Below are positions 492-36,188 of a stretch of DNA of 38,900 bases, one piece after another. A program made the position numbers and the translations under genes. Within the stretch, counting starts at the first letter, position 1. Each line of letters begins with the position of its first letter. The notes under the pieces were generated by a model. The model worked only from the letters and a program-made list of their open reading frames with translations, did not search any database and was not told the origin of the DNA. The stretch comes from Deltaproteobacteria bacterium (lineage in GTDB: Bacteria > Desulfobacterota > Binatia > HRBIN30 > JACQVA1), in contig JACQVA010000225.1 of NCBI GenBank assembly GCA_016210005.1, forward strand, positions 1 to 38,900, written 5' to 3'.

Positions 492-1412
492 TCAGCGACG
501 GCGTGCTTTGCTCTCCAAGAAATCGACCAGCTCGCGTTCGATGTTGCTGCCGCTAACGGCATTGATCTGGCGCACGGCCGAGGGGCTGGTGACGTTGATT
601 TCGGTGAGGTAGCCGCCGATCACGTCGATGCCCGCCATCCACAGGCCGCGGCTGATCAAAGTCGGCGCGATGGCGTCGATGATTTCTTGATCACGGCGCG
701 TGATGCTGGTGGGTGCGACGATGGCTCCTTGGTGGATGTTGGCGAGCTGCAGCGGCCCGCGCGGTATCCGGTTCACCGCCCCCAGCGGGCGGCCGGCGAG
801 CACGAAGATGCGCTTATCGCCCTCGATGACCGCGTCGATGTACTGCTGCACCAGCACAAACTGGCCGCCGAGATCGGGCGGCACGGCTTCGGGGTCGGGC
901 AGAATCACGATGCCACGGCCGCTGCAGTCGGCCAGCGGTTTGAGGATCGAACGGCCGTGGCGGGCAACGAATTCCCGCATCCGCGCCCGCTCGTTGGTGA
1001 ATATCGAGGGCGGCGTGAAGGGGGCAAAGGCCAGCGGCAACAGCTTCTCGTTCACCAGGCGTAAAGAACTCGGCTCGTTGATCACCGGCACGCTGGCGGT
1101 GGCCCGCTCCAAGACGAACGTGGCGGCCAAATAGGCGGCATCGACCGGCGGGTCCTTGCGCATCAGCACGAGGTCGAAGTCCTCGAGCGGGCTGTCACCG
1201 AGGTCAGCGAGCCGGTAGAAGGGCCGCTCGGCCAGGTTCAGCGTAATGGCACGGGCGCGGGCGCAGGCGCGGGCGCCGTCGAGATACAGGTCGCCGATCG
1301 TGGTAATGGCGTTTTGGTGACCGCGGCGAGCGGCCTCCTCCATCATCAGTAGCGAGGTCTCGGTCTCTAAATTGAGGGTATCGAGCGGGTCGATGACATA
1401 GAGCAAGCGCAT
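492..1412 (-). CDS. gshB: Glutathione synthetase (ATP-grasp)
   Basis: 306 residues, near the usual GshB length of about 315. It catalyses ATP-dependent ligation of glycine to gamma-glutamylcysteine in the cytoplasm, the last step of glutathione synthesis. The N-terminus MRLLYVIDPLDTLN matches the family start (MDPI-like motif), followed by the LVLMRKDPP region, the ATP-grasp segment ILKPLADCSGRGI, and a C-terminal part with AGIDVIGGYLTEINVTSP that supplies Mg/ATP-binding residues. I start at the ATG at 1412 because AGGGAGACC lies just upstream and homology begins there; a longer frame from 1454 would add 14 unrelated residues. It is divergent from the receiver-kinase gene at 1584. A glutaredoxin at 12893 fits a glutathione-using cell. 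Confidence 0.93.
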   Translation of the reverse strand: MRLLYVIDPLDTLNLETETSLLMMEEAARRGHQNAITTIGDLYLDGARACARARAITLNLAERPFYRLADLGDSPLEDFDLVLMRKDPPVDAAYLAATFVLERATASVPVINEPSSLRLVNEKLLPLAFAPFTPPSIFTNERARMREFVARHGRSILKPLADCSGRGIVILPDPEAVPPDLGGQFVLVQQYIDAVIEGDKRIFVLAGRPLGAVNRIPRGPLQLANIHQGAIVAPTSITRRDQEIIDAIAPTLISRGLWMAGIDVIGGYLTEINVTSPSAVRQINAVSGSNIERELVDFLESKARRR

Positions 1413-1583
1413 GCGGTCTCCCTGGCTAGGCGTCGGGGCTGGATTGTACGGCATACACAGAGGCGGCGGAAGGACGTGGCGTGTCTAGTTGGCGGCGCAC
1501 GTCTGGGTGACTTTGCGGCATCCGGCTCTTGCTCGCACCAGCACGGTTCGCAGATAATTCGCGCCTACGCCGGGCAGACAGAC

Positions 1584-2750
1584 ATGGCGCCGCATACGGT
1601 ACTCGTGGTTGATGATGAGCCCGCCAGTCTGCGTGCGGTTCAGCGCGCGCTCAGCGCCGAGCATCGCGTGCTGCTGGCCAACAGCGGGCCGGAAGGCCTG
1701 CGTCTGCTGGCCGCCGAGCCCGTATCAATCATCATCGCCGACCACCGCATGCCGGAGATGACCGGCACCGAGTTCTTGGCGCGCTGCAGTGCTTTGTGTC
1801 CGGAGACGATTCGAATCCTGCTCACCGGTTACACCGACGTCGAGACGGTGATCGCTGCCATCAACGACGGCCAGGTCTACTACTATCTCACCAAGCCGTG
1901 GGCGCCGCACGAATTACAGCTGGTGGTGCGGCGCGGATTCGAGCGCTACCAAGCCGAGCAGGAGCGGCGCCGGCTGCTGCACGAACTCGAACAGGCGTGC
2001 GCCAAAGCGCGCCGTGAAGCCGAACAGAAGGGCCGCTTGTTGACCTTGGCGGCACACGAGCTGGGCACGCCGCTGCACGTGCTGCTCAACGCCCTCGATC
2101 TACTGGCGGCCGCCGATCTCCCGGAAGCGGCCGCAAACTGGCTGGAAACGGCCCAGCGCAACAGCGCCTGGCTGGCGCGCGGCCTGGCGCAAATGACGGC
2201 GGCCGCACGCGCCGGCAGCAACGGCTTGCGCTTGCATCGCACCGCGGTGCGGCTGCCGGCACTGTGGTCGGCGCTGCACGACGAGCTGCGGTCGCGGCTG
2301 GCGACTCGCGCCGTGGCGCTGGTGGCGGAGTTCCCCGGCGACTTGCCGGTGGTCGACGCCGACGAGCGCTGGCTGCGCCACGCTCTCGCCAGCCTGGTGT
2401 CGAACGCGGTGCGCTTCACTCCTGACGGCGGTCAGGTGTCGCTCCGGGCCGAGGTGGAAGCGGGCGCCGTTGCCCTGGCGGTGCGCGACAGCGGCATCGG
2501 CATAGCTCCGCAACACCTCGAAGAGATCTTCGAGCCCTTCTCGGCCGCCGGCGGCGACCCGTTCCTGCACATGTCCGGCTCGCTCGCCTTTGGTGCTCGC
2601 GGGCTCGGGCTGGGGCTGGCGATCACACGGGCCATCGTCGCGCAGCACGGCGGCAGCCTGCGTGTGGATAGCCGCCCGCAAGCGGGCAGTTGCTTCACCA
2701 TGGTGCTGCCGCTGCACGCCACAGGTGTGTCGGGCGCAAAAATTGAGTAA
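1584..2750 (+). CDS. Hybrid response regulator receiver / histidine kinase
   Basis: 388 residues. A receiver domain comes first (about 4 to 118; acidic pair D10-D11, phospho-acceptor D53 in IIADHRMP, K104 in YYYLTKPW), then a coiled linker, then a kinase core with H158 in LAAHELGTPLHVLL, an N box LVSNAVRFTPDG, and G boxes DSGIGIA and GLGLGLAI. No membrane segment or sensor domain is visible, so it is probably cytoplasmic and receives phosphate from another kinase. The REC part, with its YLTKPW ending, resembles receivers attached to RpfG-type phosphodiesterases. The start at 1584 places the receiver at the N-terminus; an in-frame extension to 1476 has no domain. The H box has HELGTPLH where HELRTPL is usual. 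Output partner unknown. Confidence 0.85.
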   Translation: MAPHTVLVVDDEPASLRAVQRALSAEHRVLLANSGPEGLRLLAAEPVSIIIADHRMPEMTGTEFLARCSALCPETIRILLTGYTDVETVIAAINDGQVYYYLTKPWAPHELQLVVRRGFERYQAEQERRRLLHELEQACAKARREAEQKGRLLTLAAHELGTPLHVLLNALDLLAAADLPEAAANWLETAQRNSAWLARGLAQMTAAARAGSNGLRLHRTAVRLPALWSALHDELRSRLATRAVALVAEFPGDLPVVDADERWLRHALASLVSNAVRFTPDGGQVSLRAEVEAGAVALAVRDSGIGIAPQHLEEIFEPFSAAGGDPFLHMSGSLAFGARGLGLGLAITRAIVAQHGGSLRVDSRPQAGSCFTMVLPLHATGVSGAKIE

Positions 2751-3356: not shown

Positions 3357-4217
3357 ATGAAACAGGTCAAGCAGTCACACCTGGCCGGCAACTGGTACGA
3401 AGGCAGCGCCAGCCGGCTCGAGCGTCAGATCAACGCATTACTGGAGGCGGCGGACCAGGGCGGGCCGCGAATGCGCGAGCAACCGCCGGTGGGGGTGGTG
3501 GTGCCGCACGCCGGCTATGTGTACTCGGGAGCAACCGCGGCGGTGGCCTACAGCTGCTTGCGTGCATGGCCTTATCGGCGGGCCGTGATCTTGGCGCCCA
3601 GTCACTTCGTCTATCTACACGGGGCGGCGACGCTGGCAGTGGATGCATTCGCCACGCCGCTGGGTGAGGTCGCCGTCGACCGCCCGGCGCAGGACGAGAA
3701 CTGCACACACCCGCTGGTGCAGGTTGATGATCGCGCCTACCGCCGGGAGCACGCGCTTGAAATCCAGCTACCGCTGCTGCAACGCGTGCTGCCACAGGCG
3801 GCGATCGTACCGCTGCTGTTGGGGACATTGGCGGCGGCTGATTTGGAGGAGTTCGCCGGCGTGCTGCAACGACTGGCGGGGCCGCACACTATCTTCATTG
3901 TGAGTTCGGACTTCACCCACTACGGAGCCCAGTTCGATTACTTGCCGTTCCCGGCTAACAACGCTGAGCAAGTGCGCGAGCGCTTGCGCGCCCTCGACCT
4001 CGGCGCCATCGAGCACGTCCTGGCCGGTGATCTCGCCGGCTTTCGCCAATACGTCGCCGACACCGGCATCACCATCTGCGGCCGGGTCCCGATCAGCACC
4101 TTCCTGGCCTGGCATGGCCGCGGCCCACGCGGACAGCTGTTGGCATACACCAGCTCGCTCGAACTGACCGGCGACTTCGAGCACAGCGTGAGTTACGCCG
4201 CCCTCGCCTTCGCCTGA
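3357..4217 (+). CDS. amrB: MEMO1 family protein (AmmeMemoRadiSam system protein B)
   Basis: 286 residues, full length for the family, with a good ribosome site (GCGGGGGCGGCG) before the ATG. Family motifs are PHAGYVYSG (H51), ILAPSHF (H83), EHALEIQLPLLQ, SSDFTHYG (H188) and TICGRVPI (C241). H51, H83 and C241 correspond to the residues reported to bind iron in human MEMO1, related to extradiol dioxygenases. In bacteria the gene commonly sits with an AMMECR1 protein (A) and a radical SAM enzyme, but neither is in this window. The reaction it performs is not known. It is the last gene of the 2761 to 4217 group and converges with the MFS gene. Confidence 0.88.
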   Translation: MKQVKQSHLAGNWYEGSASRLERQINALLEAADQGGPRMREQPPVGVVVPHAGYVYSGATAAVAYSCLRAWPYRRAVILAPSHFVYLHGAATLAVDAFATPLGEVAVDRPAQDENCTHPLVQVDDRAYRREHALEIQLPLLQRVLPQAAIVPLLLGTLAAADLEEFAGVLQRLAGPHTIFIVSSDFTHYGAQFDYLPFPANNAEQVRERLRALDLGAIEHVLAGDLAGFRQYVADTGITICGRVPISTFLAWHGRGPRGQLLAYTSSLELTGDFEHSVSYAALAFA

Positions 4218-4331: not shown

Positions 4332-5615
4332 CTAGCCAGGAACCCGCTCGGCGGCGGCCCGTGCAATTTGGGCAGGATGCGGCAGCAGATAGACCGCCAC
4401 CGCCGCCGCCAGGAAGACGGCGACGTGGAGCATGAACGCCAGCTGATAATTCCCGCTCACGTCGTAAATCCGTCCCGTCAGCACCGGGCCGGCAGCGCCG
4501 CCCAGCGTGGCGGCAATCATGATCAGACCGAGAATTTTGCCGAAAGCGAGCAACCCGAAACACTCGCCGACCAGCAACGGAAACAGCACGGCGATACCAC
4601 CGAGCCCCATCCCGTAAGTCACCACGAACAGCGGCAGCGCCGCCGTTGACTCGATGCGCAAGAGTATCGCTGTACCCAGGCCGGAGAGCAGCAAGGCGGC
4701 CGTCAGAATTCCGCGCTTGCCCGCGCTGTCGGCGACGTAGCCGACGATGACGCGGCCGGCGACGCTAGCGCCGATCGTGATCCCCAGCGCCGCCGCGGCC
4801 GTTCCGCCCTCGAATCCCGCATCACGCAAGTGCGCAACGAAATGGCCGATGATCGACAACGACGCAAAGGTCCACAGGAAGTGCGCCAAGGCCAGGGTCC
4901 AAAATACGCTGGTCCGCAGCGCCTGCCCCAACTCAACTCCAGCACTGCCGCCCGTGGCGCCGTCGCTTGCCGCCGAGGCGTCGGTGTCGCCGTCCGGCAA
5001 GACCCCCATATCCGCGGGACGGCTGCGTACGACCGCCAGAACCACCGTCACCACCACCACCAAGATCAGTCCCCCCAATGTGCCGAAGGCCACGCGCCAT
5101 CCGAGCCGAGCGATGAGGAGCGCTGCCAGCGGCGCCATGACCAGACCGCCGAAGCCGATCCCGGTCAACGCGATGCCCATCGCCAGACCGCGCTTCTTGG
5201 TGAACCAGTTCGCAATCAGCGCCTGATTCGGAATCCAGGCCACGCAGGTGATCCCAACCGCCGCCAGTGCGTTGAGCACATAGAGCTGCCAGATGGAGCC
5301 GATGAGGCCGAACAGGGCGAAAGCCCCGCCCATGAGCAGAGCACCACCGGTCATCACCGTGCGCGAACCGTACTTGTCGATCCACATACCGACCAGCGGC
5401 GAGGTCAGCCCGCTCACGACCGCGGCGACCGCGCTGCCGGCCGCAATCGCCGCCCGGCTCCAACCGAAATGCTCCTGTAACGGCACCAGAAACACCGGCG
5501 GCGCATACAAACCGACCCCGACCGTGACGAACAGGACGAGAAACGAGCACGCGACAATCCACCAACCGTAGAAGGTACCGTCCCGCGCGATGGCCGTCTG
5601 CTGAGAAGTGTTCAT
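4332..5615 (-). CDS. MFS transporter, oxalate/formate antiporter-like
   Basis: 427 residues with about 12 predicted membrane helices in two bundles and a hydrophilic central loop (PDGDTDASAASDGATG, about residue 210). The N-terminus has GTFYGWWIVACSFLVLFVTVGVG, and the loop after helix 2 carries the MFS motif A variant GMWIDKYGSRTVM near residue 77. These features resemble the OFA and monocarboxylate porter groups, which move organic anions across the inner membrane. Substrate cannot be read from sequence. It stands alone, convergent with the MEMO1 gene and 228 bases from the receiver-LpxC gene. The ribosome site is weak (GGGTC). Confidence 0.82.
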   Translation of the reverse strand: MNTSQQTAIARDGTFYGWWIVACSFLVLFVTVGVGLYAPPVFLVPLQEHFGWSRAAIAAGSAVAAVVSGLTSPLVGMWIDKYGSRTVMTGGALLMGGAFALFGLIGSIWQLYVLNALAAVGITCVAWIPNQALIANWFTKKRGLAMGIALTGIGFGGLVMAPLAALLIARLGWRVAFGTLGGLILVVVVTVVLAVVRSRPADMGVLPDGDTDASAASDGATGGSAGVELGQALRTSVFWTLALAHFLWTFASLSIIGHFVAHLRDAGFEGGTAAAALGITIGASVAGRVIVGYVADSAGKRGILTAALLLSGLGTAILLRIESTAALPLFVVTYGMGLGGIAVLFPLLVGECFGLLAFGKILGLIMIAATLGGAAGPVLTGRIYDVSGNYQLAFMLHVAVFLAAAVAVYLLPHPAQIARAAAERVPG

Positions 5616-5843: not shown

Positions 5844-7124
5844 CTACAGCTGCAACACCTTACGGATCTCGCGTAACAGGGCGATGTTGTCCGAGTGGCC
5901 GGTGCGGCGCGCGCTGACGAAGCCGCGCAGCGGCCGGCCCAACAAATAGAGATCACCCATGATGTCGAGAATCTTGTGGCGGGCGAACTCGTTGGGAAAA
6001 CGCAGGGCTGTGTTCACCACCTTTTCCTCATCGATCAAGATGCAGTTGTCCAAGCGCCCGCCGCTCGCCAAGCCCATCGACGCCAGCGCCTTCATGTCCT
6101 TGAGAAAGGCGAAGGTGCGCGCCGGCGCGATCTCATCGCGAAAGGCACTGGCGTCCTTGAGCACGAAGGTGTGCTCCTGGCGCCCCACCGGCGGCGGGTA
6201 TTCGAGGGTGTAGGCGACACCGAAGGTGTGCGCCGGCTCTATCCAGATGGCCTCGCCCTGCCCCGCGGGGTCGCCGGCCGCGATGCGGCGGTCGATCACG
6301 ATCGGCTCGACCGTGCCGGCTTGCTCTTCGAGGCCGACGCTCTCGATCAGCCGGCAGAACTCGCGCGCCGAGCCGTCCATCGCCGGCACCTCGTTGTGGA
6401 TCTTGATCAACAGGTTAGTGATGCCGTAGGCGTGCAGCGTCGCCAGCAGGTGCTCGACCGTCTTGACGGTGATGCCGCCGCGGTGAACGGTGGTGGCGTA
6501 GCCGGTGGAATCGACGTAGTCCAACAACGCCGGCACGTTTTCGTCCGACGACACGGTGGCGAAGACGATGCCGCTGCCGGGCGGCATCGGCTGCAAGATC
6601 AGGCCGGTCTTGCTGCCGGTGTGCAGGCCGTGGCCGCTGGCCACCACCCCGCGGCGCAGCGTGCGCTGGCGGCGCGCGCCGATTCCCAGCGCCGCCCCGT
6701 GGCCCGCGGCCTCATTCACCGGCAGTGAGTTGTCTCCCACCGGCGCCGATTGTCCGAGCGCCGCATGATGGTCGAGGGCACGAGTAACCACCCGCAGCAG
6801 CCCCTCGAGCGAGAACGGCTTCTCGATGAAGTCGAAGGCGCCCAGCTTGGTCGCTTTGACCGCGGTTTCGATGTTGCCGTGCCCGGAGATCATCACCACC
6901 TCGGGCGACTCGGGCTCGGCCCGTAACCGCTCGAGCAGCTCGATGCCGTCCATTTCCGGCATCCAGATATCGAGCAGCACCAGCTCCGGGCGCTCGTGCT
7001 GCAACACTGCCAGTGCCTGCCGGCCATCCTCCGCTTCCAGCACCCGCAACCCTTCGTCAGCCAACACGCCCCGGACCGCGGCGCGAATCTCGGCCTCGTC
7101 ATCCACCACCAACACCGTCGCCAT
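5844..7124 (-). CDS. lpxC: NtrX-like receiver domain fused to UDP-3-O-acyl-N-acetylglucosamine deacetylase
   Basis: 426 residues in one uninterrupted frame, about 120 longer than normal LpxC. Residues 3 to 118 are a receiver: D8-D9, phospho-acceptor D52 (LLDIWMPEMDG), S80 in VVMISGHGNIETAV, K102 in FIEKPF. This wording is typical of NtrX. After a Gly/Ala-rich linker, residues 152 to 426 are a complete LpxC, the zinc enzyme for the first committed step of lipid A synthesis. Active-site residues are present: E224-H225 (TVEHLLATLHAYG), NEVPAMDGSA, ARTFAF, H383 and D387 (RHKILDIMGDLYLLG) and H410 (GHSDNIALL). A near-perfect AAGGAGG lies before the ATG. An NtrY-type kinase gene ends 128 bases upstream on the same strand. 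The receiver keeps everything needed for phosphorylation, but the AAA+ and DNA-binding parts of NtrX are absent. Confidence 0.93.
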   Translation of the reverse strand: MATVLVVDDEAEIRAAVRGVLADEGLRVLEAEDGRQALAVLQHERPELVLLDIWMPEMDGIELLERLRAEPESPEVVMISGHGNIETAVKATKLGAFDFIEKPFSLEGLLRVVTRALDHHAALGQSAPVGDNSLPVNEAAGHGAALGIGARRQRTLRRGVVASGHGLHTGSKTGLILQPMPPGSGIVFATVSSDENVPALLDYVDSTGYATTVHRGGITVKTVEHLLATLHAYGITNLLIKIHNEVPAMDGSAREFCRLIESVGLEEQAGTVEPIVIDRRIAAGDPAGQGEAIWIEPAHTFGVAYTLEYPPPVGRQEHTFVLKDASAFRDEIAPARTFAFLKDMKALASMGLASGGRLDNCILIDEEKVVNTALRFPNEFARHKILDIMGDLYLLGRPLRGFVSARRTGHSDNIALLREIRKVLQL

Positions 7125-7252: not shown

Positions 7253-9502
7253 TCATATCCGCGCCCCGCCCACGCGCGCCAGCGGCAGGCGGCGGCGCAG
7301 CGGGAATTCGATGATGAACTTGCTGCCGTGCGGCGCGTTGTCGCGCACGCGGATGTAAGCCTGATGGTCGGCGACGATGGCGGAGACGATCGCCAGGCCG
7401 AGCCCGGTGCCGTCCTTCTTGGTGGAGAAATACGGCTCGAAGATGCGATGCTTCACCGCCGCGCTGATGCCGGTGCCGCTGTCGGCCAGCTCGAGGCGCA
7501 CCAAGCCGGCGCGGGCCTCGAAGCCGGTGGCGATGGCGATTCGCCCGCGCTCACCCGGCACCGCCGCGCAGGCGGCCACGGCGTTGTCGAGCAGGTTGAC
7601 CACGGCGCGCTTGATGGCTTCGCGATCGAGTTCGAGCGCGGGCAGCTCCGCCGCCGGCGCCCAGTCGAAGTCGATCTCGCGATGGCCCTCGCGGAACAAC
7701 ACCAGCGCCTCCTCGACCACCTCGTTGAGGTTCTGCGCGCTCAGCTCCGCCGCCGGCATGCGCGCGAAGGTGGAGAACTCGTTGACCATCTTCTTCAGCT
7801 CCTCGACCTGCCGGATGATGGTGCGCGTGCACTCGTCGAAGACGGCGTCGTCCTGCCGATCGAGCTGGCTGCTGTAACGCTTGCGCAAGCGCTGCGCCGA
7901 GAGCTGAATCGGCGTCAGCGGGTTCTTGATCTCGTGCGCGATCCGGCGCGCCACTTCGCGCCACGCCTCCATGCGCTCGACCCGCAGCAAGTGGCTGACG
8001 TCCTCGAAGAACACCATCCAGCCCAGCGGCGCCCCGGCATCATCGCGCAGGGTGGTCGCGGTTACCAGCGCGGTTACCACCCGCTCGCCGCCGCTGAACT
8101 TGAGCTGCCGCTCGGCCTCCGACTCGCCGCCATCGATCACCTGCCCGACCAGTTCGCCGACCTTGCGCAGATCGGAGCGGGCGAACACCTCGCGCCATGA
8201 GCCGCCGATCACCTCGGGCGCGCGCAAGCCGACCATGCCCGTGACCGCCCGGTTGACGGTGGTGACGATGCCGCTGTCGGCGATCGCGATCACACCGGCG
8301 GTGACGTTGGCGAGAATGTTCTCGATGTAGCGCCGCCGCTCGTCCAACTCCGAGTGAATAGTCTTGAGCTCGGCGGTCATGCGGTTGAAGGAGTCGACCA
8401 GGGTGGCGATCTCTTCATCGCCGCCGCTGGCAATGCGGAAGTCCCAGTTGCCGCGGGCGAGCTCGCGCGTGCCTTCGGCCACGCGCTGAATCGGCACGGT
8501 GATCCCCTTGGCGAGATAAAAGCCGAACCAAGTAGCGGAGAATATCACCACCAGGGTGATCAGGAACAACGTCAAGATGTAGCCGTTCTTGATCGGCTGC
8601 TTCATGGTCTTCAGCTGGCGGTATTCCTGGTACGAGCGCGAGATGTCTTGCGCGGTGCGGCTGACGTGGCGCGGCACCACTTCGCCGACGACGAGCGCGC
8701 CGATGATCTTGCCGTCGGCGCCGGTGAGCGGCATGCCGCCGCGGACCAAGTCGCCTTTGCTGACCCGTTGCGTGCCGGTGCTGGCCTGGCCGCCGAGCAG
8801 CTCATCGAGCATGTCGCTCGGCGCCGCCGGCACCGTGGCGCCGGCCGGTTCGGTCTGGGCCACGCTGACCACGGCTTCACGGCCGGCATCGAACACCTCG
8901 ATGCTGCTGAGGTTGAGTTCGCGCAGTTTCTCGGCGAGGAACTCGCGCAAGGCCGCCCGCCGCGACGAGCCCCACAGGCCGCGCTGGGCGACTTGCTCGC
9001 CGAGAACGCGGGCGAAGTGCACACTGTCGTTGCCGGTGGCCTGGTAATACGACTGCGCCACGTCGAGCGAGCCGGCGAGCGAACTCTCCACCCGCACGCT
9101 GAACCAGTTCTCGATCGCGGTGTTGAGGAAGCCTTGCGCCACCAGAAACAACAGCAGCGTCGGAAACAGCGTCAGGCTGACGAACGCCAGCACCAGGCGC
9201 GTGCGCAAACGCGAGCCCAGGATGCGCTGGCGCCGCTCGAACAGCAGCTTCACCAGGTTGCGGGTGACCAGGAACACCAGCAGGATGAGCAGGATGAGAT
9301 TGAGGTTGATCAGCAGGAAGAAGATGATGTTGCCTGAGAGCGACGAGCTGTTGCTGAACTGCGGCAGCCGGGTCTCAAACAGGGCGAGCACCAACACCAC
9401 CAGTGCGGTGACGACGATGACGGCCGCCTCGCGACGGCGGCGCCGCCGTTCGTCAAGCGCCAGGATCGGCCGCTCAGGCCACAGGCTACGCCAGCGCAAC
9501 AT
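7253..9502 (-). CDS. ntrY: NtrY-type membrane sensor histidine kinase
   Basis: 749 residues. Hydrophobic segments near 26-42, 57-79 and 105-127 lead to an extracytoplasmic region (128 to 305), then a membrane helix (306-331), HAMP (about 332-385), PAS (about 392-505), the phospho-acceptor H523 in RRIAHEIKNPLTPIQLSAQRL-type sequence, N box VVNLLDNAV (632-642), and G boxes DSGTGIS (674) and GTGLGLAI (698). This layout and wording are those of NtrY, partner of NtrX in nitrogen and redox regulation in other proteobacteria. Here the neighbouring receiver is attached to LpxC rather than to an AAA+ regulator. No clear ribosome site is seen before the ATG at 9502. Confidence 0.88.
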   Translation of the reverse strand: MLRWRSLWPERPILALDERRRRRREAAVIVVTALVVLVLALFETRLPQFSNSSSLSGNIIFFLLINLNLILLILLVFLVTRNLVKLLFERRQRILGSRLRTRLVLAFVSLTLFPTLLLFLVAQGFLNTAIENWFSVRVESSLAGSLDVAQSYYQATGNDSVHFARVLGEQVAQRGLWGSSRRAALREFLAEKLRELNLSSIEVFDAGREAVVSVAQTEPAGATVPAAPSDMLDELLGGQASTGTQRVSKGDLVRGGMPLTGADGKIIGALVVGEVVPRHVSRTAQDISRSYQEYRQLKTMKQPIKNGYILTLFLITLVVIFSATWFGFYLAKGITVPIQRVAEGTRELARGNWDFRIASGGDEEIATLVDSFNRMTAELKTIHSELDERRRYIENILANVTAGVIAIADSGIVTTVNRAVTGMVGLRAPEVIGGSWREVFARSDLRKVGELVGQVIDGGESEAERQLKFSGGERVVTALVTATTLRDDAGAPLGWMVFFEDVSHLLRVERMEAWREVARRIAHEIKNPLTPIQLSAQRLRKRYSSQLDRQDDAVFDECTRTIIRQVEELKKMVNEFSTFARMPAAELSAQNLNEVVEEALVLFREGHREIDFDWAPAAELPALELDREAIKRAVVNLLDNAVAACAAVPGERGRIAIATGFEARAGLVRLELADSGTGISAAVKHRIFEPYFSTKKDGTGLGLAIVSAIVADHQAYIRVRDNAPHGSKFIIEFPLRRRLPLARVGGARI

Positions 9503-9772: not shown

Positions 9773-10807
9773 TCACTTGGAAAACAGCCTTCCCTGCAAT
9801 GGCCCGGGCCGCGACGTGCGGCCGAAGTGGTCGTGCGCCAGCGCTGTCGCCATGCGGCCCGTGGGCGTGCGGCTGAGATAGCCTTCCTGAATCAAGAACG
9901 GCTCGTAGACATCTTCAATCGTGTCGCGCTCTTCGCCCACTGCTGCCGCCAAGGTGTCGAGACCGACGGGTCCGCCGTTGAACTTGTCGATGATGGCGAG
10001 CAGGATCGCCCGGTCCATCTTGTCGAAACCGCGGTGGTCGACCTCGAGCATGGCCAGCGCCCCATCCGCCACCGGGCGCGAGATGATGCCGTTGGCGCGC
10101 ACTTGGGCATAGTCGCGCACGCGCCGCAGCAAGCGGTTGGCGATCCGCGGCGTGCCGCGGGCGCGGCGCGCGATCTCCAGCGCGCCCTCGTCCTCGATCG
10201 GCACGCTGAGAATCGCGGCCGAGCGCCGGACGATCTGCACCAGCTCGTCGGGGTTGTAGAAGTCCAGCCTGAAGGTAGCGCCGAAGCGATCGCGCAGCGG
10301 CGAGGTCAGCAATCCCGCGCGCGTGGTCGCGCCGATCAAGGTGAAACGCTTGAGGTCGAGCTTGATCGAGCGCGCCGCCGGGCCCTGCCCGATCATCAGG
10401 TCGATTTGGAAGTCCTCCATGGCCGGATAGAGGATTTCTTCCACGATCCGGCTGAGGCGGTGAATCTCGTCGATGAAGAGGACATCGCCGGCGTCGAGGT
10501 TGGTGAGAATCGCGGCCAAATCGCCGGGGCGCTCGATCACGGGCCCGGAGGTGGAGCGGATGTTGACGCGCATCTCGCGCGCGATGATGTGCGCCAGCGA
10601 GGTCTTACCCAAGCCGGGAGGGCCGCACAACAGCAAGTGATCGAGGGAATCGCCACGCGCCTGCGCCGCGGCGATCGCGATGCGCAGGTTGGCCTTGACC
10701 TGTTCCTGACCAACGTAGTCACCGAGCGTGGGCGGGCGCAGCGTGGTATCGAGCGCGACGTCCTCGTCGCCGCCCGCTGGGGTAATCAATCGTTCGGGTT
10801 CGCTCAT
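9773..10807 (-). CDS. ruvB: Holliday junction branch migration ATPase RuvB
   Basis: 344 residues, full length. RuvB hexamers drive branch migration of Holliday junctions with RuvA. Visible motifs: [11 protein letters not shown], Walker A GPPGLGKT (62-69), Walker [13 protein letters not shown] (D113, E114), the [18 protein letters not shown] sensor/arginine segment, and the C-terminal winged helix ending with [12 protein letters not shown]-type sequence (here [14 protein letters not shown]). It starts 3 bases after ruvA. Confidence 0.97.
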
Positions 10808-31790: not shown

Positions 31791-33182
31791 TCAGGAGGCC
31801 GTGCCGCCGCCGGCTCCGCCGGCCGGCCCGGCTGGTCGCGCGTATCTTCGCAGCAGGCGGTACAAGGTCCGCTCGCTGATGTGTAGAATCCGTGAGGCCT
31901 GGGCGCGGTTCCCTCCCACGCGCTCCATCACCGACAGCACGTGGCGCCGCTGCACGTCGCGTAGCGAAAGCGTCTCGCCGGCGCGAGGGGTGCTGTCGGT
32001 GCCGCCGAGCGTGATGGCTGCCGGCAGGTCTTCCGGCTCGATCACGTCCCGGTCGGTGAGCACCATGGATTGCTGCACGGCGTGGATGAGTTCCCGCACA
32101 TTGCCCGGCCAGCGGTAGCGGCGCAGGGCTTCGATTGTGGCCGGGGCGAAGCGCTGCGACCGGGAGAAGCGCAGGTTGAACTCGTGGGTGAAGTGCTCGA
32201 CCAGCGCGCCGATGTCGTCCCGGCGCTCGCGCAGCGGGGGGACCTCGACAGTGAGGAGCGCCAAGCGGAAGTACAGGTCCTCGCGGAAGTGCCCGCGCGC
32301 GATTGCGCCATTGAGGTCGCGGTTGGTGGCGGAGATCACCCGGACGTCTACCACGATCTCCTTCGTACCGCCGAGACGCCGGAAGCGGCCCGTCTCGAGG
32401 ACCCGCAGGAGCTTTGCCTGCACTTCCGGGCTCATTTCCCCGACCTCGTCGAGAAAAATCGTCCCGGTGTTTCCCACCTCAAAGAGGCCGTGCTTCAAGC
32501 GATCGGAGCTCGTGAACGCGCCCTTCTCGTGTCCGAAGAGCTCGGACTGAAGCAGTTGCTCGTGGAGGGCGGCGCAATCGACGACGACGAACGGGCGTTC
32601 CCGCCGCCGGCTCAGCGCGTGCAGTGACCGCGCCACCATCTCCTTGCCGACGCCGGTCTCGCCGAGGATCAGGGTCGTCGAGTCAGTAGGCGCGACGCGG
32701 GCGATGGTCTGGCGCACCTTCTCCAGCGCCGGGCTCTTCCCGATGAATTCGAGGCCGACGTCAACGGCCGAGTAGCCATCCTCCAGCACCCGCTGGCGCT
32801 CGACCAAGCGGAGGTGCTCGTAGGCCTTCTGAATGGCCATGTCCATGCGGTCGAGCGGGCAGGGCTTCTCGAGGTAATCGTACGCCCCCAGGCGCACGGC
32901 TTGGATGGCCGTGTCGATCGTCCCGTGGCCGGTGAGCATCAGGACCCCGGCGGGCACGTCGTTGGTGCGAAGCCGCTTGAGGACTTCGATCCCGTCCATG
33001 TCGGGCAGCCGCAGGTCGAGCACGATCACGTCGGCTTCGCCCGCCTGTGCGAGCGCGGCCGCGCCGGAGGCCACGGAGCTGACCGCATAGCCCCGCCGCG
33101 CCAGTTCGCTCGACATGATGCCGCGGAACTCGTCATCGTCGTCGACGAGCAAGACGCGGGCGGCCTTGCGATTGCCGCTCAT
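31791..33182 (-). CDS. NtrC-family sigma-54-dependent response regulator with altered GAFTGA loop
   Basis: 463 residues. Receiver (about 8-122; D14-D17 acidic run, phospho-acceptor D56, K106), AAA+ domain (145-385: Walker A GETGVGKE at 174-181, Walker [11 protein letters not shown], arginine-finger region [16 protein letters not shown]) and a C-terminal Fis-type helix-turn-helix ([25 protein letters not shown], 423-447). The sigma-54 contact loop reads GAFTSS (221-226) instead of GAFTGA; the essential Thr is kept. Its ATG overlaps the kinase stop (ATGA), so the pair is co-translated. The tail is Gly/Pro/Ala rich. It is the obvious candidate to act at the sigma-54 promoters near 28830 and 29040. 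Confidence 0.93.
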
Positions 33183-35062
33183 GCCGCCTCGTCGCGCGCG
33201 CGTGCGAACACGACCTCGAAGCAGGAGCCCACGCCGACTTCGCTCTCGGCGAGGCGCACATCGCCCCCGAAGCGGCGCATGATGCCGCGCGAGTGGAACA
33301 GCCCGACGCCGGTTCCCTGCAACCGGCTGGTGCGGAAGGGCTCGAACAGGTGGCGCCGCGCCTCCGGCGGGATGCCGCGGCCTTGATCACGAATGCGCAG
33401 CCGCACATCTGCGCCGGCGTGGCAGCTCACCGTCACCGTCCCGCCGCCGTTCTCGAACGATTGGATGGCGTTCACCAGCAGATTCAGCACGACGTGCTGG
33501 ACGGCCTCCGTATTCGCCGTCACGAGTGGGAGGCGCTCGCCGTCGTCGTCGATGCGGATGGTGACCGCCGCCTCGCGGGCGGTCGGGGTGACGATCGCCA
33601 CAATGGACGTGACCACCACCATGAGATCCACCGGCTCGGTCGAGGGTGGGATCCCGCGGGAGAATCGCCGGAACTGCTCCGTGATCTTGCGGCATCGCAG
33701 CACCTGCCCGCGGATGGTCTCCGCGATGTCCCGGATCTCCTGCCAGCTTGCCGGCGGTCCTCCCGGGCGCCCGGCGCCGTCGATGCGGCCCAAGATGGCT
33801 TCGGCGCACGTGAGCGTCGTCGCCAACGGCGTGTTCACCTCGTGCGAGAAACCGGAGGCCAAGGCCCCGAGCGACTCGAGCCGCTCCAGCTCTGCCAGGC
33901 GGGTCTCTTCCAGGACGCGGTCGGTGATATCGCGCCAGATCTCGACGACCTGCGACACGTTGCCGTCCTGGTCAAACACCGGCGAGGCGTGCACCTCCTC
34001 GACGCGGCCGGGCTCGCCGTTCCGCGAGGGAAGCTGGAACGTCGCACGGTGAACCTCCCCGGTCGCAAGGCATCGCACGCTCGGGCAGCCGGCGTCATTC
34101 ACCTCACAGTAACGCGTCGTGTTGAGGGCCTCCTGGCAGCGATGGCCGTGCAGCGCCTCCGGGTGGGAGCCGAATCGCCTGCAGAAGGCGTGGTTCGCGG
34201 CCACGATGCGGAAGTCCTGATCCAGCACGACGAGTCCGTCGTCGACGCTGTTCATGACGTTCGCCAGCTGCGCTTCGCGCTCTTGCACCTCGGTGACGAG
34301 TCCCAAGACCGAGTTCGCCATGTCGTTGAAATCCATCGCCAGCGAAGTGATCGTGTCATCGCCGCGCACTTCCACCCGGCGCGTCAGGTCGCCGGCCGCG
34401 ATTGAGCGGGCGGTCTCCCCGAGCGTGGCCAACCGGCCTAGGATGAGGCGGCGCATGATCAGGCCGACGCTGGCGAGCAGGAGCAGCCCGAGCAACGTCG
34501 TCGCGGCGATCATCCACGTCCGGTCACGGCCGAGTTGTGCCTGCAAACCGGCCAGCGACACATCCAAGATGAGGATGCCGTTGAGGTGTTTCTCCGGCGG
34601 GTGGCAGGCATAGCACTCCGGCCGGTTCTCGATTGGCTGCACGCTGCGCAGCACCTCGCCGCCGGGCAAGTCGAGCACCGCCCAGCGGTTGCGCTCAATC
34701 GGGGCCTTCTGGTGACAGACCATGCACGCGGCCGAGTCGCGCGCCACCTGCTGCCCGACCTGGCCCGGATGGCTCGCCTGTCGCACCACGCCGTCATGGT
34801 CCAGAATCATGACGCCCTGCACTTCCGGCTGGGAGCCCACCTCGTGGAGAATGGTGGCGATCAGCTCGCTCTTGGCGTGTTTATCGAGCATCTGATGGCG
34901 CAGAGCCGCTTCGAGGATGCGGTTCTGCAGCTCGGCTGCATGGCGCTGCCCCTCCACCATGCTGTTGAAATGATGCTCGGAGAGCACGTAGAGGCCGACG
35001 GCCAGCATGCCCGTAACGAGCGCCGCAATGGCTAGTGCAAGCCGAAGAGTGAGGCGATTCAT
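33179..35062 (-). CDS. Diheme sensor histidine kinase
   Basis: 627 residues. Membrane helix (about 7-27), periplasmic sensor (28-182), second membrane helix (183-203), HAMP (204-258), PAS (262-380), kinase core with H407 (ASGFSHEVNTPLATTLTCAE), N box LNLLVNAIQSF and G boxes DQGRGI and GTGVGL. The periplasmic part carries two c-type heme motifs, C113-MVC-H117 and C150-YAC-H154. The cytoplasmic PAS holds a cysteine cluster (C294, C309, C319, C326, C331) that might bind a metal or Fe-S centre. Together these suggest sensing of periplasmic redox state or a heme ligand. The start at 35062 puts the first helix at the N-terminus; the open frame to 35188 adds no domain. Confidence 0.9.
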   Translation of the reverse strand: MNRLTLRLALAIAALVTGMLAVGLYVLSEHHFNSMVEGQRHAAELQNRILEAALRHQMLDKHAKSELIATILHEVGSQPEVQGVMILDHDGVVRQASHPGQVGQQVARDSAACMVCHQKAPIERNRWAVLDLPGGEVLRSVQPIENRPECYACHPPEKHLNGILILDVSLAGLQAQLGRDRTWMIAATTLLGLLLLASVGLIMRRLILGRLATLGETARSIAAGDLTRRVEVRGDDTITSLAMDFNDMANSVLGLVTEVQEREAQLANVMNSVDDGLVVLDQDFRIVAANHAFCRRFGSHPEALHGHRCQEALNTTRYCEVNDAGCPSVRCLATGEVHRATFQLPSRNGEPGRVEEVHASPVFDQDGNVSQVVEIWRDITDRVLEETRLAELERLESLGALASGFSHEVNTPLATTLTCAEAILGRIDGAGRPGGPPASWQEIRDIAETIRGQVLRCRKITEQFRRFSRGIPPSTEPVDLMVVVTSIVAIVTPTAREAAVTIRIDDDGERLPLVTANTEAVQHVVLNLLVNAIQSFENGGGTVTVSCHAGADVRLRIRDQGRGIPPEARRHLFEPFRTSRLQGTGVGLFHSRGIMRRFGGDVRLAESEVGVGSCFEVVFARARDEAA

Positions 35063-35180
35063 CGCCAGCGCGTCCCGTTGACAACCGCGTCGGATACTAG
35101 GCCCCTTCGACGGCCGAAGTCCATAGCCGGACAGGGGAGGGGCTGCCCCGGGAACGCCATGTAGCATTCTGTGATCAAGG

Positions 35181-36188
35181 CTAGCCAATTAGGGTCCGGG
35201 CCGATCGCTCGCCCAGCGCGGCGCGCACGGTCATGGCCAGCACCAGCGGGCCAAGCAGCCCCGCGGCTAACTTCAGTAGGTTTGCCGCTCCGGCCGGAAC
35301 CGCCGGCGGCAAACCGGCCCGCGCGGCGTCAATGAAGAACAGGTGGTAGAGGTAGATCGGATAGGTGAGGCGGCTCAGCGTAACCACCCCAGGCGGCACG
35401 CTCTTGGTCGAAGCGAAGAGCAGCATCACGGCCGCGATCGAGCCGTAGCAGATGGCGTATCTGACACTGGCCGCCAGCGCGCTGCCGGCAGAGTTTCGCG
35501 CCAGCAGCGTGGCCTCCACTGCCGCTAGCGCGACTGCTCCGCTCAGTATACCGGCGCCCATCGGGATTGCGCGCCGGCCGATCAGGCCGCGCCAGCGTTC
35601 GCCGTGGCGGGCCACCATCCACCCCGATAGGAAGTAACCCCACCAGTGCAGTGGGCTACGAAACTGCCAGTAACCCAGCTGATCGGAGCGCGTCATCAAC
35701 GCCACGAAGGCGTCGCGCCCGGCCAGGGACAACCAGCCGCCGGCGAGGAACACGAACCACGCCAACAAAGCCAGCCGCCCCACGCGCGGCATGATCCACC
35801 CGAGCACGATCGCGCCGCACAGCATCGGCACGAAGTAGTAGATGCCGAAGGCCGAGCCGGTACACACTGCCCACCACACCTCGCGCCAGGTGAGGGCGTG
35901 CGGCAAGACCGCGGCGCGCAGCGCTAGTGCCAGAGCGCTGGCCAGCAGATAAGGCGGCAGCAGCCGCCACAGCCGGAGGCGAAGCTCGGCCCAGGCCGCT
36001 GGCCGGGCACTGTACTGAAGGAAGCCGGAGGCGAAAAAGAAGGCGGGAACTGCGGCGACCGTGAGGCTGGCGAGGAAGCGCACGCCGAGCGGGTGCGTCA
36101 CCCCGTAGATGGTGAAGGCATGAATCCAGACGACGGCCACGATTGCGGCCGCCTTGAGCGCGTCGATCCAGGGAATGCGGGTCGTCAT
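35181..36188 (-). CDS. Acyltransferase 3 family membrane protein
   Basis: 335 residues, about ten membrane helices. The N-terminus IPWIDALKAAAIVAVVWIHA carries the family His, followed by VAAVPAFFFASGFLQYSARP, and the C-terminal region has LSRLTYPIYLYHLFF. Members transfer acyl groups to surface sugars or other envelope molecules; the substrate here is unknown. The ATG at 36188 has GAGGGG upstream; a GTG at 36203 is less likely. It follows the second DUF4143 ATPase gene by 32 bases on the same strand, which need not mean a shared function. Confidence 0.82.
   Translation of the reverse strand: MTTRIPWIDALKAAAIVAVVWIHAFTIYGVTHPLGVRFLASLTVAAVPAFFFASGFLQYSARPAAWAELRLRLWRLLPPYLLASALALALRAAVLPHALTWREVWWAVCTGSAFGIYYFVPMLCGAIVLGWIMPRVGRLALLAWFVFLAGGWLSLAGRDAFVALMTRSDQLGYWQFRSPLHWWGYFLSGWMVARHGERWRGLIGRRAIPMGAGILSGAVALAAVEATLLARNSAGSALAASVRYAICYGSIAAVMLLFASTKSVPPGVVTLSRLTYPIYLYHLFFIDAARAGLPPAVPAGAANLLKLAAGLLGPLVLAMTVRAALGERSARTLIG

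Follow-up and report, generated by a model that had tools for sequence, protein, structure and literature searches.

An NtrX-type receiver domain fused to the lipid A enzyme LpxC, beside an NtrY-type kinase in Candidatus Binatia and also present in other lineages

The 38,900-nucleotide stretch of DNA analysed here (the window) encodes, within one open reading frame, a receiver domain of the NtrX type followed by a complete LpxC, with an NtrY-type membrane sensor kinase directly upstream. We consider it probable that this is an NtrY-NtrX system in which the transcription-factor output has been replaced by LpxC, such that NtrY would phosphorylate the fused receiver and set the activity or the amount of LpxC. 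The initial annotation had proposed a two-component system that acts on the LpxC protein without transcription, and comparative evidence supports this non-transcriptional reading, since receiver and kinase are catalytically intact across the class, the transcription parts of NtrX are absent or decayed, and no free NtrX was seen beside NtrY in the fetched genomes with a fusion. From these sequences we infer that phosphorylation actually changes LpxC.

The fusion protein (426 residues from an ATG; positions 5844–7124, minus strand) consists of the receiver (residues 1–118; 6771–7124, minus strand), an unconserved linker of variable length (residues 119–152; 6669–6770, minus strand) and the LpxC deacetylase domain (residues 153–420; 5865–6668, minus strand). 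In Pfam searches, Response_reg (PF00072) matched residues 4–113 with 115 bits (cut-off 30), and PF03331 matched residues 153–420 with 274 bits (cut-off 27), covering model positions 1–266 of 268; the LpxC half also scored 231 against the NCBIfam model TIGR00325 (cut-off 187). As the initial annotation stated, the receiver has all phosphorylation residues; these are the acidic pair D8 and D9, the presumed phospho-acceptor D52 (codon at 6969–6971, minus strand, placed by alignment), S80 and K102. Its top NCBIfam family is NtrX (134 bits over residues 1–126 only, under the NtrX full-length cut-off), followed among receiver families by AtoC (102 bits), and among solved receivers 4d6x and 5m7n (Brucella NtrX) come closest to it in sequence. 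The LpxC domain likewise proved complete in its metal-binding and catalytic residues when aligned with 6moo; we take the nine positions to be, in E. coli numbers, E78, H79, T191, F192, H238, K239, D242, D246 and H265. The initial annotation had named a stop or frameshift between residues 119 and 152 as evidence that would count against a fusion, and the frame is open there in the assembled sequence. Response_reg and LpxC were the only Pfam domains found. As the Sigma54_activat AAA+ and Fis-type DNA-binding domains are absent, the protein is not an NtrX, though its receiver is NtrX-type. No FabZ domain was found in it with Pfam or NCBIfam, and the LpxC-FabZ model NF009667 matched the LpxC part only (206.7, cut-off 465).

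Profile searches of the source genome (5.9 Mb in 268 contigs, 97.6% complete) found LpxC once, in the fusion itself; the second lpxC that the initial annotation suggested looking for was not found. Because it is the sole LpxC match, the fused domain is likely active as a deacetylase. The NtrY_N profile also matched once, in the kinase beside the fusion. This kinase (7253–9502, minus strand; 749 residues), the presumed cognate partner, is intact and contains the five expected Pfam domains: NtrY_N, HAMP, PAS, HisKA and HATPase_c. Its catalytic histidine, His523, is encoded at 7934–7936 (minus strand) according to an alignment of class kinase cores. Upstream of ntrY lies ruvB (9773–10807, minus strand), and genes for a glutathione synthetase (492–1454, minus strand), a Memo-family protein (3357–4217, plus strand) and an MFS transporter (4332–5615, minus strand) are situated downstream of the system. 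Two other signalling genes were observed in the window. One encodes a protein with a receiver ahead of HisKA and HATPase_c (1476–2750, plus strand); the other encodes a second response regulator, of the NtrC type (31848–33161, minus strand; NtrX-profile score 350 bits, under the cut-off), adjoined by a long minus-strand open reading frame at 33179–35188.

We then consider how far the arrangement is conserved in the class Candidatus Binatia, whose members are uncultured. Our sample comprised 148 genomes, of which 140 had an LpxC match, and the LpxC locus of each was taken. The receiver was in frame with LpxC in 136 of the 140, and the combination of PF00072 and PF03331 thus recurs across the class; the four exceptions are three contig ends (G059, G075 and G124) and one broken LpxC frame (G104, locus L229). 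An NtrY-type kinase was found upstream on the same strand in all 133 genomes having upstream DNA, the remaining 7 of 140 loci lying at contig ends no more than 150 bases from the first domain match of the fusion. The N-terminal part of NtrY was within reach and seen at 101 of the 133 kinase loci, and the phospho-acceptor histidine was present in 130 of the 133 kinase cores, the other three being gapped at that column. Across 143 class genomes the NtrY_N profile had exactly one match in 128 and none in 15, although the profile is an imperfect test, as some of these 15 (e.g. G016 and G127) have the kinase beside the fusion. Degenerate receivers in relatives would have spoken against the initial annotation; instead, D8, D9, D52 and K102 were invariant in the alignment of the 130 fusions that are complete among the 136, as were the nine LpxC metal and catalytic positions. 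Receiver position 80 is serine in 119 of these proteins and cysteine in 11, and the linker varies in both sequence and length. One genome (G129) has an extra classical, unfused LpxC besides its fusion, on a 3.1 kb contig (C171, locus L010), perhaps through contamination.

Within genera, the receiver had a median dN/dS of 0.076, LpxC one of 0.104 and the linker one of 0.48 (128 of 142 pairs with usable dS; a simple NG86 estimate, with dS up to 1.5). The value for the receiver is as low as that for LpxC, indicating that the receiver is constrained as much as the enzyme. These results bear on the idea that the receiver is a functionless relic or the fusion an assembly error, to which we give next to no credence. 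Isolated damaged cases fit that idea: one fusion has lost the start of its receiver (L181, genome G228), in another the receiver lies in a separate frame (L154, G248), and the LpxC frame is broken in G104, sequencing error and decay not being told apart in these three. However, the fusion is in frame throughout most of the class, its phosphorylation residues do not vary, and a relic would be expected to decay, as the AAA+ module of a longer form of the fusion (below) did. Assembly error or chance overlap is ruled out by recurrence across the class, and for practical purposes the sequence comparison refutes this reading as a whole.

Fused LpxCs are also found outside the class. In a 395-genome phylum sample they scored at least 277 bits against the window protein, and unfused LpxCs at most 199, among the matches listed. 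Two architectures were present in 40 fetched loci: receiver-LpxC, of about 450 residues, and NtrX-LpxC, of about 730 residues, in which a receiver, an AAA+ domain and a C-terminal part precede LpxC. Among named records, seven from Nitrospinota (one a Nitrospina sp.) and one from Nitrospirae have the long form, and records that bear the labels Myxococcota and Bdellovibrionota have receiver-LpxC. In proteins from outside the class, D8, D9 and D52 are present in 34 of 35 receiver-LpxC proteins (the exception is the damaged L181) and in all 27 NtrX-LpxC proteins with a receiver found, and K102 in 35/35 and 27/27, respectively. Deviations at the nine LpxC positions were limited to S and Y at the places of T191 and F192 in L045 and L052.

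The long form retains a receiver and an LpxC beside a decayed transcription module. Unfused NtrX proteins encoded beside ntrY scored 235–248 bits for Sigma54_activat and had HTH_8 in 6 of 6 tested; NtrX-LpxC proteins scored 56–116 bits for Sigma54_activat and lacked HTH_8 in all six tested, with receivers at 105–114 bits. By regular expression, the FTGA motif was found in 15 of 16 unfused and none of 28 fused NtrX sequences, and the same test for a Walker B with DE at its end was positive in 14 of the 16 and in none of the 28. Some ordinary NtrX proteins elsewhere reportedly have no GAFTGA, so that motif alone proves little and it is the joint loss that counts. Walker A was recognisable in 26 of 28 NtrX-LpxC proteins, so nucleotide binding may persist in their AAA+ part. 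In L166–L169 most of the C-terminal domain of the NtrX part is gone. An intact receiver and LpxC beside decayed AAA+ and DNA-binding parts are what would be predicted of a receiver that has come to act on LpxC.

In a tree of 135 LpxC domains, the 94 fused and the 41 unfused domains are completely separated by one branch (SH-aLRT 98), a topology that allows, and does not prove, a single origin of the fusion; the tree is a quick one with a midpoint root and many weak forks. The long form is nested within it, with receiver-LpxC rows diverging closer to the base. A simple order in which NtrX-LpxC came first and receiver-LpxC followed is unsupported, as this nesting would call for several deletions or separate fusions. 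The receiver tree unites the class fusions (99/92), but the LpxC tree separates family f6 from the remaining class rows and so gives two groups. Fifteen columns of LpxC hold lineage-specific residues (e.g. K241, G174 and C257). G390 and G348 each have two LpxC genes: one is classical and lies beside an ntrY that has no ntrX next to it, and the other is a highly divergent receiver-LpxC with a long branch (L186, L187; L293, L294). G525, a single-contig genome that is 75% complete, has two receiver-LpxC copies (L174, L175) and no NtrY_N match.

We also looked at the neighbourhoods of unfused lpxC and of ntrY. An unfused LpxC and an NtrY were both among the matches listed for 74 phylum genomes. 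Of these, 42 have lpxC a short distance upstream of ntrY and in the same orientation (40 of 72 if two rows added by hand are left out), and in 40 of those 42 it is within 1.6 kb of the NtrY_N match. Twenty of the 42 loci were fetched (L289–L308). Sixteen have NtrX after ntrY in the same orientation, forming lpxC-ntrY-ntrX clusters in these relatives with unfused LpxC, and one (L292) has it next to ntrY on the opposite strand; the three loci without NtrX (L293, L294 and L308) belong to genomes G348, G390 and G193, each of which carries a receiver-LpxC fusion elsewhere. In 20 genomes with a fusion and a distant ntrY, no receiver or AAA+ domain was found by that ntrY within the 1.0–2.6 kb downstream and 0.7–1.5 kb upstream that were covered. 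Taking the fetched ntrY loci together, NtrX adjoins ntrY in 17/17 genomes without a fusion and in 0/23 with a fusion away from ntrY, a pattern that concerns ntrY loci only and that, the genomes being related, does not amount to 40 independent events. That NtrX stands beside ntrY only where there is no fusion points to the fused receiver as the NtrX that is missing, and the clusters suggest that control of lipid A by NtrYX may be wider than the fusion.

The pairing of fusion and kinase is not universal. The idea that ntrY always adjoins the fusion proved right in the class wherever testable and wrong in several other lineages, where other genes adjoin the fusion; an NtrY_N match was absent in 8 of 46 tested fusion genomes. 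A different, missed or lost kinase is therefore possible in those lineages. These cases, together with the many receiver proteins in the source genome, lend something to the alternative that another kinase drives the receiver and that NtrY is merely its ancestral neighbour. We regard this as unlikely, given that the kinase is adjacent wherever testable in the class, that no other NtrX was found beside NtrY in the fetched fused genomes and that the receiver is NtrX-type. NtrY could also have other partners, a point against our preferred explanation, as the source genome has 108 NtrX-profile matches (the best at 413 bits, cut-off 600). That these best matches stay under the cut-off speaks against a free NtrX in this genome, and the eight of them placed in the receiver tree did not group with the fused receivers, although branches were long and support was weak; this tree is consistent with an NtrX-type receiver, but its deep support is weak.

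How the receiver might act on LpxC was approached by structure prediction. The AlphaFold model of the fusion (pLDDT 80.3, pTM 0.73) folds both domains, with residues 126–148 below 50; for the receiver-LpxC contacts, which the initial annotation suggested predicting, the model has a disordered linker and demonstrates no confident interface between the domains. It is thus compatible with rate control, dimerisation, tethering and turnover alike. The model of the long form (58.6, 0.39) was too poor for use.

Turnover was further considered through the C-terminal tail. E. coli LpxC has a C-terminal degron with an AVLA-type end and undergoes FtsH-LapB proteolysis, according to a review (PMC12444477). 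The stretch beyond the last motif has a median length of 13 residues in fused LpxCs (n = 205), compared to 42 in unfused LpxCs (the 27 of 40 that matched the motif), and the window protein has 13 residues after GHSDN, without an AVLA-type end. Such a short tail leaves little room for a C-terminal degron of the E. coli type, which is unlikely in fused LpxCs on this basis. Moreover, a search for the LapB zinc ribbon, with 150 of 378 candidates scored, gave a single match that is RadA by sequence; a LapB without the ribbon would escape this search. The tail lengths, the LapB result and the proteolytic control of LpxC elsewhere (PMC12444477) speak for an alternative in which the receiver governs the location or lifetime of LpxC and not its rate, with NtrY tethering the enzyme to the inner membrane or phosphorylation hiding it from, or exposing it to, a protease. 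We hold this to be possible but doubtful, as both the tethering and the receiver-dependent protease are putative.

In the explanation that we favour, replacement of the NtrX output by LpxC, NtrY would sense an envelope or redox-type signal and autophosphorylate on His523, and the phosphoryl group would pass to Asp52 of the receiver. The receiver would then alter LpxC activity or amount via the flexible linker, with docking or dimerisation that depends on phosphorylation as the likeliest means, and lipid A synthesis would be set quickly and without transcription. We infer the signal, the NtrY-to-receiver phosphotransfer, the effect on LpxC and its sign from sequence and from analogy. For the sign, a study of Rhodobacter sphaeroides reports that deletion of ntrYX raised lpxC mRNA 8.8-fold and also raised LPS, and that no NtrX site was found upstream of lpxC (PMC7240162); a review describes lpxC transcription in R. 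sphaeroides and C. crescentus as inhibited by NtrYX (PMC12444477). As NtrYX lowers lpxC expression in these two alphaproteobacteria, our guess is that phosphorylation restrains LpxC. The flow of information might also be reversed, with LpxC sensing its substrate or product and altering dephosphorylation of the receiver, so that the fusion would report lipid A flux to NtrY or serve as a phosphate sink. A fusion would permit this, and no other NtrX output was seen beside NtrY in the fetched cases. However, without NtrX beside NtrY such a report has no known destination, and LpxC, being the sole copy found, must supply lipid A; we consider reverse flow highly improbable.

A broader hypothesis, which we judge about equally likely to be right or wrong, is that the NtrX of an lpxC-ntrY-ntrX cluster joined LpxC and that its AAA+ and DNA-binding parts decayed or were excised, giving rise to a large two-component family, in Candidatus Binatia and in records labelled Nitrospinota, Nitrospirota, Myxococcota and Bdellovibrionota, that acts as a phosphorylation switch on a core enzyme. 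If this is true, control of lipid A supply would be a primary and ancient job of NtrYX. More generally, if our reading of the fusion is correct, a two-component system would have a core biosynthetic enzyme as its output, with the wiring held in one protein (the receiver on the enzyme, the sensor kinase next door), and could link sensing at the envelope to supply of the outer membrane quickly, bypassing transcription. The appearance of NtrYX, a system named for nitrogen, among envelope phenotypes would also be consistent with it. The two forms of the fusion, long and short, make up a natural series in which to test how regulators change their output.

Response regulators with enzymatic outputs are known, including CheB, PleD and other GGDEF proteins, and HD-GYP proteins. 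Like these, the fusion has its receiver and an enzyme in one chain and no DNA binding; their outputs are signalling enzymes, whereas the fusion has in that place LpxC, which catalyses the committed step towards lipid A. LpxC-FabZ (NF009667) is also a natural LpxC fusion, but it joins two biosynthetic steps and has no signalling domain. We found no description of a receiver-LpxC or NtrX-LpxC fusion in the literature as searched by title and start of abstract, a search whose scope excluded most subscription journals and bioRxiv, and as far as could be found a response regulator with the committed lipid A enzyme as its output is undescribed.

Other systems also converge on LpxC. In E. coli, FtsH-LapB controls the committed step towards lipid A after translation, as is proposed here for the receiver; there, as the review describes, proteolysis depends on LapB and a C-terminal degron, whereas the fusion has a short tail and a fused receiver, and LapB was not found in our limited search (PMC12444477). 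A two-component regulator dedicated to lpxC is likewise represented by DVU2934 of Desulfovibrio vulgaris, a response regulator reported to have lpxC as its single target; unlike the fusion, it is a separate DNA-binding protein that acts on the lpxC gene (PMC3333781). A further comparison is with NtrYX of alphaproteobacteria and other bacteria, which shares the domain order of the kinase, the NtrX-type receiver and the adjacency of the two genes, and which has already been linked to lpxC and the envelope (PMC7240162, PMC12444477). Classical NtrX is a DNA-binding regulator and affects lpxC through transcription, whereas in the arrangement described here LpxC itself would be the output.
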